IMG/VR virus record: IMGVR_UViG_3300028873_000014
Span: 36,172 to 100,171 of that record
DNA: 64,000 nt
Reading direction: 5' to 3' (one strand)
From: a virus
The translations under genes were made by a program, and so were the position numbers. Position 1 is the stretch's first letter. The number at the start of each line of letters is the position of its first letter. This document shows, piece by piece, positions 1,308 through 57,997 of this stretch. The notes under the pieces are model-generated. The model was not told the DNA's origin. It did no database searches and saw only the letters and a program-made list of their open reading frames with translations.

Positions 1308-3704
1308 TTATAGGTACTCTACTTTATACCCCATTGATTTTAATCGAATTATTTCGTGATCAGGTAAGTCAACTTCTTGTGCTCCCATAGACACACCACC
1401 ACCATTTTGCATATATCCCCCATACCTACCTTGTGGGGCGTAATACATACCTGGAGCACTTGGAGTATTATCAGAAGGACGGAAAGTACCTGTATTTGGG
1501 GTGTAGTCACCTCTGTTTCCTTGGGTATTTAACCTCTGTGCCCCGAAAGTGTTATCAGATAATCCTTGGTTCTGGGTAAACTGGTGTAGCTGTCTTTGAT
1601 TCTTTTGATCATTAAAGTAGGATGCAGTTACTAAACCTGCTCCCAGTAAGTTATCAAACTCATGATTAGCAAAACCTAATCCGTTATTACCTCTATGAGA
1701 ACTTCCCCCAGGACCAGACTGTGATGTTGTCATAGGTGCATTTTGTACCATCGGTTGAGTACTAGGTGTAGTAGGAGATACCATTGGTTGATTGTTATTA
1801 TCTACCTGTGGTTCATTTGCATACGCTGCAGTTACAGGATTATTAGGGTCTGTAGCAGGGTTATATCCACCATCTTGCATGAATTTCTGTAGACCACCAT
1901 ATTCTTTTTTTGACCAAGATTTACTGTTCCTGGCAAAATTGGCCATCTGTCGTACATGTGGGTCAGAACTATGTAAAGCCTCTTCTGTAGTTTTACCTGT
2001 CCTTTTTTTATATGCAGTAAATTTACCTTTGTTCTCAGGCTTAATTTTAATACTACCACCATCTTTCATCTCTTCTGCCATACCTCCTTCCTGATAGCTC
2101 ATACCACCAGTACCATATCTGTCTACTACTCCTCCATTAGCAAGATATGCATACTCCATTGGTTCGGGCAGATAACCACCGAACTTTGACCAGGAAGTAC
2201 CATTCATAGTAGAACCTCCTTTTCTTGGTTGCCCTGGTCTTTCTTCATTCCTTGTATCATCTATAAACTGTACCCCACCACCATTTTGATAATTAGGCAT
2301 TGGGGCATAGGTATTTTGATAAGATAAATACCCCCCAAGTTCAGCACCCATCATACCGTTCTGTGTTCTCATAAACTCATGAGGACGTACTTGTGGGTTA
2401 ACATAGTTAGGGTCGTTATTAGTAGCAAAGAAAGGTCCACCGAGTTTTGCAAGACCTTGTTGCTGTCTAACAGAGTCTATGGAATAATCGGTATCTTCCC
2501 CTGTATGCCAATTATCCTGTTGGGGTCTTGACATACCTTTTGGCGTAGGAGAATACCCCGCATTAGTATTACCTGCTACAGGGGAAGGTTGTTGGTATTG
2601 AGGGGGATAGTTATTATCTCTTGGATAATATCTAAGACCTTCTTTATCACCAGCATCATACATATCCCCATAATCCTGGAAACCTTTGAGCATATTACCA
2701 AGGGCAGATACTCCACCACCCTGTTGCATCTTTTTACCAGACATGTATTTTTTCATGGTCGGATCAGTTTTAAGTTCCTGTATACGTTTATTAACCTTAT
2801 TTGCATAGTCGGGATCACCAGGATTATATCCGGCAATACCTTTCTGTTTGATATAGTCAGCAGTTAAGTCCATCAAAGGTACTTTACCTTGAGGGATTTT
2901 AGCACCTTGTGTATTACGATAAGTATCTATTAGTTGTGGGTGTTGGCGTAGGTAACTTTCTGTACTATCGGCATTTGTGATATTAGCCCCCATACCAGTA
3001 TTATCTCTTACCACATTTACCCCCGGGACACGATGATCTGCAAGGAAGAGTGTGTTATACTCAGGTTTGTACTTTTCAGCAACATTCCACCCACTCATTA
3101 CCTGATTCTGATCAGTATTATTATATCCATGTGATCCGAGAGCAGTTTCCTGTCCTGCAACACCTAACATGGTATAGGGGTCAACTCCTTTACGTTTTGC
3201 ACTTGCAACTATATCATCAAGTAATTGAGTATCTACATTAGCTCCCCGGAAGTTACCATTATTAAGTTTAATGGTATTTTCTCCAAAGTACTGCTTATTA
3301 TCTATATGATTCTGAGCCTCTGTAGATAAACTATCCTGTATAGTAGATAACCTGTTAATATTAGGGTACTTCATACCATAGTTATCCATTGGCGCAGTAG
3401 TACTATTATCCACTACTTGTTTTACCGGACCAGGTAGATATATACTAGGGGTTACACCTGAATAAGTTCCTCCTTGTTGATATCTTACAGGTATTTCTTT
3501 AACTACTTGGCCAGGAAATTTATAATCTCTTCCGGGGTACATCATAGAACTTGCTCCAGTATTATCTACCCCCAGAACAGGATGAGGTACACCTTTCATA
3601 GTAATATCTGAAGAGTTTATGTAGTTTACAGAGTTATCTTTATCAGGCGAATCGTATTTAAAGCCCTCTATGGAAAACCCTCCTGTCTTAAACTTCTTCT
3701 TCAT
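1308..3704 (-). CDS. large virion cargo-like protein with transglycosylase-like domain
   Basis: 798 aa from an ATG at 3704; a longer reading from TTG at 3755 would overlap the upstream gene, so I prefer the ATG. Residues about 153-280 resemble a lysozyme/lytic transglycosylase fold: helix, then KGVDPYTMLGVAGQETALG with E186 as candidate catalytic acid. Residues about 548-597 carry KIKPENKGKFTAYKKR followed by a DPHVRQMANFARNSKSW segment, a signature I associate with virion proteins of crAss-like phages. The rest is Gly/Gln/Asn/Tyr-rich with repeated GGG(V/I) and EGG/DGG turns. By context it is a structural or ejected protein that could open peptidoglycan during DNA entry. The enzyme activity is inferred from a short motif only. 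Confidence 0.6.
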   Translation of the reverse strand: MKKKFKTGGFSIEGFKYDSPDKDNSVNYINSSDITMKGVPHPVLGVDNTGASSMMYPGRDYKFPGQVVKEIPVRYQQGGTYSGVTPSIYLPGPVKQVVDNSTTAPMDNYGMKYPNINRLSTIQDSLSTEAQNHIDNKQYFGENTIKLNNGNFRGANVDTQLLDDIVASAKRKGVDPYTMLGVAGQETALGSHGYNNTDQNQVMSGWNVAEKYKPEYNTLFLADHRVPGVNVVRDNTGMGANITNADSTESYLRQHPQLIDTYRNTQGAKIPQGKVPLMDLTADYIKQKGIAGYNPGDPDYANKVNKRIQELKTDPTMKKYMSGKKMQQGGGVSALGNMLKGFQDYGDMYDAGDKEGLRYYPRDNNYPPQYQQPSPVAGNTNAGYSPTPKGMSRPQQDNWHTGEDTDYSIDSVRQQQGLAKLGGPFFATNNDPNYVNPQVRPHEFMRTQNGMMGAELGGYLSYQNTYAPMPNYQNGGGVQFIDDTRNEERPGQPRKGGSTMNGTSWSKFGGYLPEPMEYAYLANGGVVDRYGTGGMSYQEGGMAEEMKDGGSIKIKPENKGKFTAYKKRTGKTTEEALHSSDPHVRQMANFARNSKSWSKKEYGGLQKFMQDGGYNPATDPNNPVTAAYANEPQVDNNNQPMVSPTTPSTQPMVQNAPMTTSQSGPGGSSHRGNNGLGFANHEFDNLLGAGLVTASYFNDQKNQRQLHQFTQNQGLSDNTFGAQRLNTQGNRGDYTPNTGTFRPSDNTPSAPGMYYAPQGRYGGYMQNGGGVSMGAQEVDLPDHEIIRLKSMGYKVEYL

Positions 3705-27636: not shown

Positions 27637-28521
27637 TTAATAATTATTCGGTAATGATAATAACTCTAAATACTTTTGGTACTTTCTATCCAGATAAACT
27701 GTGGCATCTTTATACAGTAAATTCATTATTTGCATTGCTGGTTTTCCTGTAGAATCCATACTATATAACTCATTTTCTCTTGGGGCTTTCTTTGTATTAG
27801 ATGCACATGTTATACCCGATATCTTTATAAAATTTAAGAACTCGTCTATAGTACTATTATTACCGCTTAACCCTACTTTAGGATAATAGTAAACTTTTGC
27901 ATCAGGTTTATCGTTATTAGCACCTTTGCTATGTGAAAGACCTACCCAACCATCACCATCAACTACCCCTCTCCAAAAATCCCTAGAATATTTTAAAAGA
28001 TCATGAGGGGTTATACTATATGTTTTATTAGAAGTAAACCCTAAATCTTTTAATCTATTATAGAGTTGAGTATCTGCTACTTTTACTCTAAACATCTTAC
28101 CTCCAAAAGTAATCTGCCCCTTTAGTCCTCTATTCTCTTTTTTAGGTGTACAGTCTGTAATATTTAACTGACCTCCTAAAAACTGGTTAAACTTTTCTAA
28201 ATGACCTTTATCTACTTCCGCAAGAGCAACCCCGACTGTTGGTGCTTTTTTTTCAATACTTCCATCTGCATACAGAAAACCTATCCAGTACAGTGATTCA
28301 GGGGTTAGAATATCAAAAGCATCACTTTTGACATATTTTATCCCCATACACAACCTTTGAGCTTCTCCTTTAGTACGAAGTATTCCCATATCTTTAATCT
28401 CTCTTCGTAAAGTACCTCTATCTGTATTCATTCTTTCAGAAACTTGAATAGCAGATAATCCCGATAAATAAAGAGCTTTCATCTCTTGTCTCTGTTCTTC
28501 TGTATATACTGTTCTTTTCAT
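27637..28521 (-). CDS. LAGLIDADG homing endonuclease
   Basis: 294 aa from the ATG at 28521; a TTG nine codons earlier also keeps the frame open. Residues about 3-55 are a helix-turn-helix (EEQRQEMKALYLSGLSAIQV). The two LAGLIDADG motifs are YWIGFLYADGSI (about 79-90) and FWRGVVDGDGWV (about 182-193), each with its acidic residue, so the protein looks like an intact single-chain enzyme. It lies just downstream of the major capsid gene and its terminator. A TATCTTTG box immediately upstream (28526-28533, minus strand) may give it its own transcription. Probably a free-standing selfish element; the cut site is unknown. Confidence 0.85.
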   Translation of the reverse strand: MKRTVYTEEQRQEMKALYLSGLSAIQVSERMNTDRGTLRREIKDMGILRTKGEAQRLCMGIKYVKSDAFDILTPESLYWIGFLYADGSIEKKAPTVGVALAEVDKGHLEKFNQFLGGQLNITDCTPKKENRGLKGQITFGGKMFRVKVADTQLYNRLKDLGFTSNKTYSITPHDLLKYSRDFWRGVVDGDGWVGLSHSKGANNDKPDAKVYYYPKVGLSGNNSTIDEFLNFIKISGITCASNTKKAPRENELYSMDSTGKPAMQIMNLLYKDATVYLDRKYQKYLELLSLPNNY

Positions 28522-28591
28522 TGAACAAAGATACAAAGAGATTTTCAATTTTGTACTATACTTACTTAGTTATTTTTATAGAAATTTTTAA

Positions 28592-34510: not shown

Positions 34511-35272
34511 TTATAATGCTTTATAATCTTTTAAATATAAAAAATCCGAATCTCCTCTTTTGATTCTGGCTATTAAAGTAGTTAATTTTACATTTAAATG
34601 TATTGATAATTCGGTTAATGAAACATATATCTCTTTAGTTTTTATATTTATTACCCCTTTGGCAGATCCTGTTATAGCTAAAAGATTACCGTTTTTAAAT
34701 TCTTCTTTAGCTGCACTTATCTTATTTATTCGTTTTGATATAGTCTCTTGAGATTGTACATGACCAATTCTAGTTTGGCGTAATCGCTCTTTTTGTTCTT
34801 CTGATAAAACTGGAGGGGATAATCTATATTTTTCTTTTAATGTTGCTATTCTTTTTGCTTGAGATTCAGGGCTTAATTTTTTACCCATGTGACTATCAAC
34901 TAATTTTTTTATTGTTTCTTCGGAATGAGTATACCCCTTTAACCCTTCCCCTCCATCTGTAATATTAGATAAGCACCCTGTATTATTACATATTTTTCCA
35001 TAGAGTTTTATTAACTCAATTTCTTTTTGTTTAATAAATTCATAATCATCTGACTCTAATAGAATTTCTATATCGTAATCAGTTTTGTTTACTATTCTTT
35101 TGAAGATATTATTATTACTTATATGTTTAGAAGTAGCTCTATAGTAAGTGTAATAATTGATATCGTCTTTATTTTTAGTACCTAATCCTATATAAAAAGG
35201 TTCATTTTTATCTCTTCTAATATATCTGTATATATAATGACGTCCAAAATTTACAATTGGATTATTCTGCAT
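34511..35272 (-). CDS. GIY-YIG homing endonuclease between terL and portal
   Basis: 253 aa, ATG at 35272. The GIY-YIG module is at residues 12-33 (YIYRY...PFYIGLG), with a catalytic-type glutamate in KQKEIELIKLYG near residue 83. A SNITDGGEGLKGYTHSEET segment (about 101-120) leads into DNA-binding repeats. The C-terminal 55 residues (GVINIKTKEIYVSLTELSIH) resemble an intron-encoded nuclease HTH (NUMOD1/IENR1 type). It is wedged between terL and portal with short gaps and no sign of an intron, so it is likely a free-standing homing gene. Confidence 0.8.
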   Translation of the reverse strand: MQNNPIVNFGRHYIYRYIRRDKNEPFYIGLGTKNKDDINYYTYYRATSKHISNNNIFKRIVNKTDYDIEILLESDDYEFIKQKEIELIKLYGKICNNTGCLSNITDGGEGLKGYTHSEETIKKLVDSHMGKKLSPESQAKRIATLKEKYRLSPPVLSEEQKERLRQTRIGHVQSQETISKRINKISAAKEEFKNGNLLAITGSAKGVINIKTKEIYVSLTELSIHLNVKLTTLIARIKRGDSDFLYLKDYKAL

Positions 35273-38021: not shown

Positions 38022-39035
38022 TTACTTATTTACTTGTTTATCTATCCAACTATAGAGTAGTTTCATCCCCTCTATAAGTGGTTGTGTTGGTGACCAATTC
38101 AATCGTTGTTTGATAAGATCGTTATTACTATTCCTCCCCCTAACACCTTCAGGGCCAGGAATGTTACTAATAATTACGTTCTTCTCGGATATACCTATAA
38201 CCATTTCAGCAAGATCATTTATAGAGATCATCTCATCACTACCTATGTTAAGTATATCTGTACAATCACTTCTCATCAATCTGATTATTCCCTCTACACA
38301 TTCATCTATATAAAGAAATGAACGGGTCTGTTTACCATCTCCCCAAATGTCAATCCACACAGGTGCTTCAAAGTCTATACCATCTCCGGCAATTCTACCA
38401 TTTGTTCCTTCTATAACTTTAGCAACTTTACGACATATAGCTGCAGGTGCTTTCTCCTTACCATTATTCCAGGTAGTTTCTGGACCAAAGATATTATGAA
38501 AACGTGCTATCCTAACAGTTAATCCATAGTTACGCTCAAAAGCTTTGTAAAGTCTCTCACTAAAAATCTTCTCCCATCCATATTCACTATCGGGTGCAGC
38601 AGGGTATATAGAATCTTCTGAACACTTTGGGTTATCCGGATCAGTTTGATTATATGCAGGATAGGCACATGCAGAACTGCTATAAAATACTCTACCTACT
38701 TTTCTTTTAACTGCTTCATTAGCAACATTCAAATTGATCATAGCAGAATTATGCATTACATTAGCATCATTTTCTCCTGTGAATATATACCCGGCACCCC
38801 CCATGTCACAGGCTAATGTATAACATTCATCGATATGTATTCCTGAAAACACTTTAGCTACTTGTAACGGATCTCGTAAATCAGCCTGTATATACTCGCT
38901 ACAATACTCTTCCTGTGAAAAATATTCATTTTCCTGTTTAATATCAGCTACCCTTATATAATTACCTTCCTGTAGTAATCTTTTAGCTAAATGTGATCCT
39001 ATAAATCCTGCCCCTCCTGTTATTAATATATTCAT
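38022..39035 (-). CDS. GDP-mannose 3,5-epimerase-like sugar-nucleotide epimerase
   Basis: 337 aa, ATG at 39035. An extended short-chain dehydrogenase: NAD-binding GGAGFIG at 7-13, ADLRD near 51-55, catalytic YGWEK at 152-156 and a Ser near 120 (YSSSACAYP). The sequence around the active site (CDMGGAGYIFTGENDANVMH, RIARFHNIFGPETTW, EKAPAAICRK) and the C-terminal NIPGPEGVRGRNSNNDLIKQ closely follow plant-type GDP-mannose 3,5-epimerase. That enzyme makes GDP-L-galactose (and GDP-L-gulose) from GDP-D-mannose. UDP- or GDP-sugar epimerases of other specificity are the alternative. It heads the downstream end of the glycan locus. Confidence 0.75.
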   Translation of the reverse strand: MNILITGGAGFIGSHLAKRLLQEGNYIRVADIKQENEYFSQEEYCSEYIQADLRDPLQVAKVFSGIHIDECYTLACDMGGAGYIFTGENDANVMHNSAMINLNVANEAVKRKVGRVFYSSSACAYPAYNQTDPDNPKCSEDSIYPAAPDSEYGWEKIFSERLYKAFERNYGLTVRIARFHNIFGPETTWNNGKEKAPAAICRKVAKVIEGTNGRIAGDGIDFEAPVWIDIWGDGKQTRSFLYIDECVEGIIRLMRSDCTDILNIGSDEMISINDLAEMVIGISEKNVIISNIPGPEGVRGRNSNNDLIKQRLNWSPTQPLIEGMKLLYSWIDKQVNK

Positions 39036-39811
39036 ATAGTTTGTATTTTTTGTTCTCGTTTATTTTGTTCTCTTTCATATGCTTTTTGTCTCATCTTTTC
39101 TATAGTTTCTGGTTTTAACTTCTTTCCCCAGTTTGGATGCTTATCACCAGAGATCGCCAATGATGCAGTTCTACAGTATTCTTCAGACATCTTTTTTCCT
39201 TTATTCCACGCAGTTTGACCTTTGTGTGACTCAGATGACTTTTTTCTTGTTTCTTCAGAAACAACCTTTCCTTTATGTGTTCTACTTATACACTCTTTCT
39301 CATAGTCAGTTCTTGGTATTCCTTTCATCTGCTTACTTGTAGATTCTGCTATCTTTCGTATTGTTTCTTCTGAGTATATACCTATCTTTCCAAAATTCCA
39401 CGGTGTCTTACCAATTAATCCTTCTGATATTTTTTTCTTTGTTTCTTCACTTGGGTTGGTTAGACCATCCCCACCATCTGTCAAATTACATAATGGTCCT
39501 AGTTTCATATCCTCTCTACCTATCTTTCGTATAATATCTATTTCCATTATTAGAGAATCTTTTTCTGATAACCCATCAGCTATATGAATTATAATTGGTT
39601 GAAGTTCATCTCTAAGGATTGCCTTTATCTTATTTGATTTATGCGAATTCTTTACACTTTTATAGTGTACTTTATTTACATGATCGTGTGATCTCTTTCC
39701 TTGGCCTTTACCTACATAAAATGGTTCATGTCCTAGAACTACATTATCGTATATATACTGCCCAGGCTTTCTTGGGTCAAGATATATATAAACATAAAAC
39801 ACATTTTTCAT
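39032..39811 (-). CDS. GIY-YIG homing endonuclease with NUMOD3 repeats, inside glycan locus
   Basis: 259 aa, ATG at 39811, 3' end overlapping the epimerase start by four bases. GIY-YIG motifs at residues 6-37 (FYVYIYL ... PFYVGKGQGKRS). A KDSLIMEIDIIRKIGRED segment holds the expected Glu. A LCNLTDGGDGL segment follows, then three to four NUMOD3-type repeats (SEETKKKISEGLIGKTPWN, SEETRKKSSESHKGQTAWN, SGDKHPNWGKKLKPETIEK), which bind DNA. It shares the GIY-YIG/TDGG/SEET layout with the gene at 34511-35272 but is a separate, divergent copy. Likely a free-standing selfish gene. Confidence 0.85.
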   Translation of the reverse strand: MKNVFYVYIYLDPRKPGQYIYDNVVLGHEPFYVGKGQGKRSHDHVNKVHYKSVKNSHKSNKIKAILRDELQPIIIHIADGLSEKDSLIMEIDIIRKIGREDMKLGPLCNLTDGGDGLTNPSEETKKKISEGLIGKTPWNFGKIGIYSEETIRKIAESTSKQMKGIPRTDYEKECISRTHKGKVVSEETRKKSSESHKGQTAWNKGKKMSEEYCRTASLAISGDKHPNWGKKLKPETIEKMRQKAYEREQNKREQKIQTI

Positions 39812-56252: not shown

Positions 56253-56474
56253 ATGAAAAAAATGATCTGGATTGGTATGATACGTCAAATACCTAATCTT
56301 AAACTAGAAGACGTTGAGAAAATGAACGAGGGTATTAAGGGTGAAGTTATTGATATGTTTGGTGCTGGTTGGGCAATAATAGGAGATAAACAAGCCCAGG
56401 ATAACTTTGGTCTTATCGCAGAACATGCTAAAAGTTATGAAAAATCAGACTTTTTTAAAAAACCTGTTTTATGA
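56253..56474 (+). CDS. small protein of unknown function
   Basis: 73 aa, ATG at 56253; a TTG two codons earlier also opens the frame. Alpha/beta pattern (MIWIGMIRQIPNLKLEDVEK, GEVIDMFGAGWAIIGDKQAQ). It overlaps the HAD gene by four bases, so the two are co-translated. May be a partner of that enzyme. Not recognised. Confidence 0.45.
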   Translation: MKKMIWIGMIRQIPNLKLEDVEKMNEGIKGEVIDMFGAGWAIIGDKQAQDNFGLIAEHAKSYEKSDFFKKPVL

Positions 56475-56959
56475 AAATACTATTCCTTGACATAGATGGT
56501 GTGCTCAATTATGAGCAGTACTACACACGAGGTCGTAGAGATGCTCCTCATCCATTATCAGAAATATGTCCTGTAGCAATAGATAACTTAAACAGAATAG
56601 TGTCCGAAACAGGCTGTAAAGTAGTTATTAGTTCTACCTGGAGACATAGTGGTATACAGTATTGTATCAATGTGCTCAGAGAATGTGGGTTCACTGGTAT
56701 GGTCATAGGTATAACCCCTTCACTGGATAAACATGGTGAATGGGTCTGCAGGGGCAATGAAATAGATCAGTACCTAAAGTTCCACAAATTGTATAAGTAT
56801 GATAGTTATTACATAACTGATCATGACTATGCGATAATTGATGACGATAGTGATATGCTATATCGACAGCGACACAACTTCTTTGAATGTTCTCCTGTAA
56901 AGGGGTTAACTTTAGAGATAGCAGATAAAATCATTCAATTTCTTAACAATACTCAATAA
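56471..56959 (+). CDS. HAD-superfamily phosphatase-like protein
   Basis: 162 aa, ATG at 56471. HAD motif I is FLDIDGVLN (5-13, Asp7 nucleophile and Asp9), motif II is VVISSTWRH (51-59), and the acidic motif IV is IIDDDSDM (122-129). This order with ISSTWR is that of the small HAD domains found in RNA-repair and nucleotide phosphatases (HAD_SAK-type) of phages. It may remove 3'-phosphates in RNA or DNA repair or act on nucleotides. The substrate is not known. Confidence 0.75.
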   Translation: MKILFLDIDGVLNYEQYYTRGRRDAPHPLSEICPVAIDNLNRIVSETGCKVVISSTWRHSGIQYCINVLRECGFTGMVIGITPSLDKHGEWVCRGNEIDQYLKFHKLYKYDSYYITDHDYAIIDDDSDMLYRQRHNFFECSPVKGLTLEIADKIIQFLNNTQ

Positions 56960-57476: not shown

Positions 57477-57860
57477 GGGGACGATTGGTTTTGACAGCAT
57501 GGAGTGAGTAAGAGTGGCGAAACAGACAATGACAATGAGTCCAAAGCGAATGTGTCAACAATAAAAGCAACATCTGAAAAGATTGCTCGTCAGAATGAAG
57601 GTGATCGCATCATAAATGCGTGTTTTGCTAATGATTTAGTTGAACTATATGACGGTTCTTTTGCTGAATCAGAATTAATAGCAGCCTAAAGTTCAAACCC
57701 ACACGATATGGGTCAATAGTCGTCTAAGGGTAGGTAACAGCCGTAAAAACAAGGAACAGTTACAAAAGCATACCTGAAGACAGCAGGAATAAAACTAGTC
57801 ATGATCGTAACTACTCCAGGAACACATGTTTGGACCCGGGTTCGACTCCCGGCGTCTCCA
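57477..57860 (+). ncRNA. ssrA: tmRNA (ssrA) with a long tag reading frame
   Basis: The two ends form the tRNA-like domain: GGGGACG (57477-57483) pairs with CGTCTCC (57853-57859) including a G3-U70 wobble, the alanine identity mark. The T arm reads CCCGGGTTCGACTCCCGG (57834-57851), and the 3' CCA is not encoded. It holds a reading frame that ends in ...GSFAESELIAA and stop TAA at 57687-57689, an LIAA-type degradation signal. The frame is open from at least 57504. Resume codon candidates are GCA at 57567 (nucleotide 91, the usual position; 40-residue tag) or GCT at 57627 (20-residue tag). A hairpin CGCAT-cataa-ATGCG lies at 57606-57620. It rescues stalled ribosomes and tags their products. Confidence 0.9.
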
Positions 57861-57899
57861 CTACTGCAGTCAAATGGCTGTAAGTATTCGCCACAATAA

Positions 57900-57930
57900 C
57901 CCCCAGATGCAGTAAGAATCGTCTGGGGGA
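57900..57930 (+). terminator. tmRNA intrinsic terminator
   Basis: CCCCCAGA (57900-57907) pairs with TCTGGGGG (57922-57929) and is followed by ATTTTTATT, 40 bases past the tRNA-like end. Confidence 0.85.
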
Positions 57931-57997
57931 TTTTTATTCTCCCCTATAGAAGATAATAATATAAATCAATTAAATAAAATTTAAAACTGAAATAATC

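Follow-up and report, generated by a model that had tools for sequence, protein, structure and literature searches.

A phage one-piece tmRNA that probably carries a 40-residue tag, and long-tagged tmRNAs in other phages

The window analysed here, a 64,000-nucleotide stretch of a 100,171-base IMG/VR phage record, encodes a one-piece tmRNA (ssrA) at 57477–57860 on the plus strand, on which ARAGORN (57477–57861) and the Rfam model RF00023 (57477–57863; 61.9 bits, above the curated cut-off of 47; E 9e-22) agree. It is the only tRNA-type gene that ARAGORN reports in the window. The acceptor stem pairs GGGGACG (57477–57483) with CGUCUCC (57853–57859) and includes the G3-U70 wobble, while CCA is not encoded and CUA follows the discriminator A at 57860. 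The T-arm CCGGGUUCGACUCCCGG (57835–57852), placed from the sequence and the RF00023 alignment, is intact as GGUUCGACUCC, and the tRNA-like domain consists of G3-U70 and this T-arm without an anticodon arm. The 5′ strand of helix P2 occupies 57495–57521, with its partner at about 57801–57831 (duplex energy −15.4 kcal/mol). Downstream, an intrinsic terminator at 57900–57938 is evident from the sequence as the hairpin CCCCCAGA/TCTGGGGG with a 14-nt loop and a T-run; it is absent from the consensus scan, which has a loop limit of 8. A gene at 56471–56959, some 520 bp ahead of the tmRNA, encodes a phosphatase of the HAD class, 'Swiss Army Knife RNA repair' type (PF18143, 91 bits), and an RNA-repair and ribosome-rescue neighbourhood around the tmRNA is possible.

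The tag frame ends in ELIAA-UAA (stop at 57687–57689), namely an open frame closed after a hydrophobic/Ala degron. The initial annotation of this DNA had recognised a tmRNA with G3-U70, a terminator and an LIAA tag end, all of which we recovered with ARAGORN, RF00023 and the sequence, and had correctly noted that the frame runs without a stop for over 60 codons; counting nucleotides (nt) from the start of the tmRNA, it is open back to a TGA at nt 16–18. Since 40 codons stay open in about 4–5% of shuffles, the length of the open frame is weak evidence alone. Three in-frame codons before ELIAA-UAA are serious candidates for the resume codon: GCA at nt 91 (57567–57569), preceded by CAAUAAAA and giving 40 aa; GCG at nt 142 (57618–57620), preceded by AUAAAU and giving 23 aa; and GAA at nt 166 (57642–57644), preceded by UUUAGUU and giving 15 aa. 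A later GCT, offered in the initial annotation as the start of a 20-residue tag, is nt 151 and follows GUUUU, which holds no resume motif.

Published rules describe a nearly invariant A at −4, U at −5, a purine at −3 and C or U at −1 (PMC2481249), favour AUAG or AUAA at −6 to −3 (PMC4236655), and place the very rare Glu resume codons in one species only (PMC1168896). GCG follows all of these rules, and GCA (site AACAAUAAAA|GCA) departs from them only at −1, where A replaces C or U. GAA agrees at −5, −4, −3 and −1, has U at −6 and is a Glu codon. In-frame UARNY matches are expected by chance: 67% of shuffles contain one or more and 28% contain two, so the motif alone cannot place the tag start. 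The −1 A of the GCA site is a real oddity; of 119 bacterial loci only two, each of them doubtful, have it, and among viral loci L069.

Position within the molecule points to GCA. The covariance model, which the initial annotation had proposed as a way to locate the resume codon, aligns its resume region to AACAAUAAAAGCAA (nt 82–94) with high posterior, and resume codons lie at nt 81–101 in 110 bacterial tmRNAs and at nt 83–109 in the viral ones fetched, ranges that the fetch patterns themselves restrict. Just ahead of GCA, ACAAUAAAA (57558–57566) is a predicted single-stranded stretch with AUAA at −6 to −3 and the unusual −1 A (rules of PMC2481249 and PMC4236655). The upstream context AACAAUAAANGCAA is common to the window tmRNA, L033, L048, L056 and others, and AACAAUAAAN|GCAA around nt 91 recurs in the phage tmRNAs L033, L048 and L056. 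A brute-force pseudoknot search yielded a candidate PK1 at 57525–57557 (GAC/GUC at nt 49–51/63–65 and UGACA/UGUCA at nt 54–58/77–81), which scores −12.5, ends 9 nt before GCA and is equalled by 9% of shuffles. The initial annotation had named a PK1 just ahead of a resume codon near 57650 as an outcome that would refute the long tag, and this was not what emerged: before nt 166 the same search found no pseudoknot better than chance (45% of shuffles match), and both the RF00023 resume region and the PK1-like fold at nt 49–81 lie upstream.

The codon-usage signal across nt 91–210, scored with the phage's own codon usage against dinucleotide-preserving shuffles, is above chance; mononucleotide shuffles agree. 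The signal extends over nt 91–165 (P=0.0002) and is present in nt 91–141 by itself (P=0.007), the comparison gives no coding signal in the tag frame over nt 1–90, and the cumulative coding score reaches its minimum at nt 85. Per codon, the window tag scores 0.19–0.22, as against 0.07–0.30 for eleven other long tags and −0.81 to −0.08 for the regions upstream of these. The changepoint itself was set aside as an exact locator of the start, being too imprecise (calibrators were off by up to 22 codons). We therefore regard the gene as probably a functional phage tmRNA that resumes at GCA 57567, encodes the 40-residue tag ATSEKIARQNEGDRIINACFANDLVELYDGSFAESELIAA (reading frame 57567–57689) and uses host SmpB and a host protease. 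The central proposal of the initial annotation, a GCA near nt 90 that opens a 40-residue tag, is thus refined to nt 91 and upheld as the best-supported reading by position and coding signal, short of proof. The tag is most likely about four times the usual length.

The main and serious rival, which we judge unlikely, resumes at GCG 57618 after a PK1 at nt 97–130 and the spacer GCAUCAUAAAU; the 23-residue sequence ACFANDLVELYDGSFAESELIAA would be a phage tag of ordinary length, preceded by an insertion of some 50 nt. AUAAAU|GCG fits the motif rules better than the nt 91 site, and other phage tmRNAs with tags of 22–26 aa exist, but UARNY often arises in frame by chance. Its pseudoknot scores −16.6 and ends 11 nt upstream, yet 14% of shuffles match it, and the codon is buried in a competing CGCAU/AUGCG hairpin (57606–57620). 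The fetched tmRNAs never resume past nt 109, though fetch patterns limit that range, and the coding-like character of nt 91–141 speaks for an earlier start; ATSEKIARQNEGDR would be the tag stretch that separates the 40-aa from the 23-aa reading. We consider it improbable that ARAGORN is correct in resuming at GAA 57642 with the 15-residue tag ELYDGSFAESELIAA. Upstream, UAGUU fits −5 to −1, and L038 carries an identical GATTTAGTT 15 codons ahead of its stop; however, a similar motif occurs in frame in two thirds of shuffles, the −6 U and the Glu codon are against it, the preceding pseudoknot is not better than that of shuffles, and nt 91–165 is coding-like. Tags above 33 aa, moreover, lie beyond ARAGORN's range. 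Least probable is a decaying or tag-less tmRNA, e.g., one that mainly competes for SmpB, with a long open frame by chance. The sporadic occurrence of tmRNA in this phage lineage (1 of 44 further records, none of the nearest) and the weak PK1 candidate would fit decay, whereas the intact tRNA-like domain, the Rfam score above cut-off and the coding signal along the tag do not.

The ARAGORN limit emerged from a mock test in which neutral codons were put after the resume codon of an E. coli tmRNA (whose known tag ARAGORN recognised): tags were called up to 33 residues, and the gene was lost at 34 or more. A 40-residue tag falls outside this range, which explains the 15-aa answer for the window, and we rejected that answer as a likely length-limit product. 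ARAGORN calls were shortened likewise in L049, L067 and Cellulophaga phage phi14:2, and nothing was called in L038 or Flavobacterium phage Fpv20. Factors other than length also cause misses, since L257, with a tag of only 26 aa, was not called either. Tags above 33 residues may therefore be truncated or missed in annotation, and tag catalogues built with ARAGORN may be biased.

Pattern scans of viral contigs revealed one-piece tmRNAs whose resume sites are canonical; in addition to the usual 10–14 residues, their tag lengths include 22, 24, 26, 33, 35, 36, 37, 50 and 54. Of those scored with Rfam, most exceed the RF00023 cut-off (L033, L038, L049, L067, L128, L133, L135, L138, L139, L146 and Fpv20), and phi14:2 (46.0 bits) and L257 (45 bits) narrowly miss it. 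The GCA viral pattern alone, run on GTDB genomes as a bacterial control, returned 119 loci with credible tags of 8–23 residues; at the three exceptions, with tags of 4, 30 and 124 residues, ARAGORN did not confirm a tmRNA. In the 2025 tmRNA database (PMC11915505), which holds 97,179 sequences, the most frequent tag length is 10 aa and 79 sequences are from phages; longer tags may already be catalogued in it.

The clearest long-tag set is a 35-residue family, e.g., GKNTNGVVSQGDNAQIEANMNTVFSLLRNEVLAAA, found in viral contigs and in 29 records of cultured Flavobacterium psychrophilum phages, whose tag matches the query at 60% identity. A related tag of 38 residues occurs in Cellulophaga phage phi14:2 (Crassvirales, Steigviridae), and VVSLEDNAQVEANMNMAFSLIR is an example of the tag peptides predicted for the cultured long-tag relatives (Fpv20, phi14:2). 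Across seven distinct DNA sequences of the 35-residue family, the tag frame has pS 0.355 and pN 0.150 (ratio 0.42), whereas the other two frames give pN/pS of 0.98 and 0.90. Similar restraint is seen in the L257–L061 pair (pS 0.35, pN 0.05) and in the phi14:2–L038 core (pS 0.64, pN 0.07). This pattern in the tag frame indicates that the tags of these families are translated and selected as peptides. In two cultured phages the gene has escaped annotation: the records of Fpv20 (KU599886.1, 84536–84950, minus strand) and phi14:2 (KC821624.1, 4031–4502, plus strand) list no tmRNA, and the latter places short CDSs of either strand across it. In L137, the span of a 35-aa-tag tmRNA contains a group I intron (1524–1739; RF00028, 94 bits), which probably corresponds to the T-loop introns described in bacterial tmRNAs. 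In L128, a 119-kb viral contig, an array of about ten tRNA genes (about 2466–3301) adjoins a tmRNA with a 33-aa tag, whose 120.6 bits are the best RF00023 score in this analysis.

The large terminase (terL) of the window phage is 22–25% identical to those of Crassvirales. Among annotated phage records, Leptolyngbya phage Lbo-JY46 gave the only match to its capsid protein, at 25%. Its lineage counts at least 534 terminase relatives in IMG/VR. A tmRNA was present in one of 44 further terminase-lineage records, many of them fragments. The nearest phages by capsid protein (L003–L005, L010) have none in their records, which rules out close comparison. At terminase identities of 40% or more, all tmRNAs detected in the lineage are long-tagged (window tmRNA 40, L146 37, L067 54 and L257 26 aa, with terL identities to the window phage of 47%, 41% and 48% for the latter three), a set that is not unbiased because L146 and L067 were found first through tmRNA patterns. 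The window also holds homing-endonuclease-like genes at 27637–28548 (LAGLIDADG_3), 34511–35272 (NUMOD3) and 39032–39811 (GIY-YIG with NUMOD3), the first two adjoining the capsid and terminase genes.

With the standard one-piece bacterial tmRNA (RF00023), the window gene shares the G3-U70 tRNA-like domain, P2, a candidate PK1-like fold, probable resumption near nt 90 and a hydrophobic-Ala-Ala tag end before UAA. It differs in being phage-encoded, in its −1 A and in a probable tag of 40 aa, compared with the most frequent 10 in the database cited above (PMC11915505). The tmRNAs of the Flavobacterium psychrophilum phages (35-aa tag) and phi14:2 (38 aa) are likewise phage-borne and one-piece, with long tags and no SmpB gene; these tags are conserved as protein and begin at a canonical resume site. 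Unlike the window gene, however, they resume at GGN, their terminases are 26% identical to that of the window phage, and homology of the tags is not demonstrable. Namely, Smith-Waterman alignment of the window tag to this family (DNxQ[IV][EK]ANM core) was no better than shuffles (p 0.13–0.96). The first 20 residues of the window tag, SEKIARQNEGDRIINACF, align to the L061 tag SERVA---EGEAILASIF with p=0.006, but over 14 comparisons this is not significant after correction and homology is only suggested. L067, from a 165-kb viral contig, shares the terminase lineage (41%), the GCA resume codon and a long tag, and differs in the greater length (54 aa) and other sequence of its tag, a strong PK1 (UAGACC/GGUCUA) and −1 C. 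The tag of mycobacteriophage Bxz1 reportedly has about 25 aa. Mycobacteriophages (e.g., Bxz1) and marine phages (e.g., Melnitz) also encode tmRNAs (PMC4131195, PMC9004378); they belong to other phage groups, and the Melnitz tmRNA is two-piece.

A model of action for the 40-residue reading can be outlined. Host alanyl-tRNA synthetase would charge the tmRNA through G3-U70, and host SmpB would bind it, since our search found no SmpB gene in the phage. During infection the tmRNA would then enter and rescue ribosomes that have stalled on broken mRNAs, with translation resuming at GCA 57567, adding 40 residues and stopping at UAA 57687. The most likely reader of the ELIAA tail would be ClpXP or another AAA+ protease of the host. 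The initial annotation's suggestion of a phage-chosen protease finds no support, as searches of the phage and six relatives returned neither ClpP nor a Clp C-terminal domain. A single-sequence AlphaFold model places a helix at residues 2–28 (pLDDT about 87 over the first 20) ahead of a disordered tail, so the tag is predicted to be a helix of about 27 residues with a flexible end. By analogy with the other long-tag phage families, this N-terminal extra part is probably a selected peptide element; the helix may be a spacer, provide a binding site or pair with a phage protein. The further suggestion that a long tag carries extra signals is supported by protein-level conservation in those families, but not for the window tag itself: the data searched hold no diverged copy of its tmRNA (L002 is identical over 8142 bases). 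Searches of phage records with the tmRNA and tag (blastn, tblastn) gave no match, and tag-end pattern scans of IMG/VR returned the identical contig only.

The general view takes the tag to be a short degron. Tags of 35–54 residues, conserved as protein in cultured phages of Flavobacterium psychrophilum and Cellulophaga, point to a second function that phages may confer on rescued proteins, which is directly testable. Our broader proposal is more tentative than the reading of the window gene: it is possible that several phage lineages expanded the tag into a functional, conserved helix of 35–54 residues (e.g., for adaptor binding or for inhibiting or relocating the tagged protein), that the window tag is one example, and that the class was overlooked because the gene finder stops at 33 residues. 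Apparent 211-aa tags in L076 and L097 were discarded as chance pattern matches without a T-arm, and RF00023 matches in gut crAss phages as sub-threshold fragments rather than tmRNAs. Permuted (two-piece) tmRNAs of the RF04321 type share the same 5′ motif and occur in many aquatic viral contigs (L013–L020, L024, L026, L029–L032, L035–L037, L042, L043 and L045).
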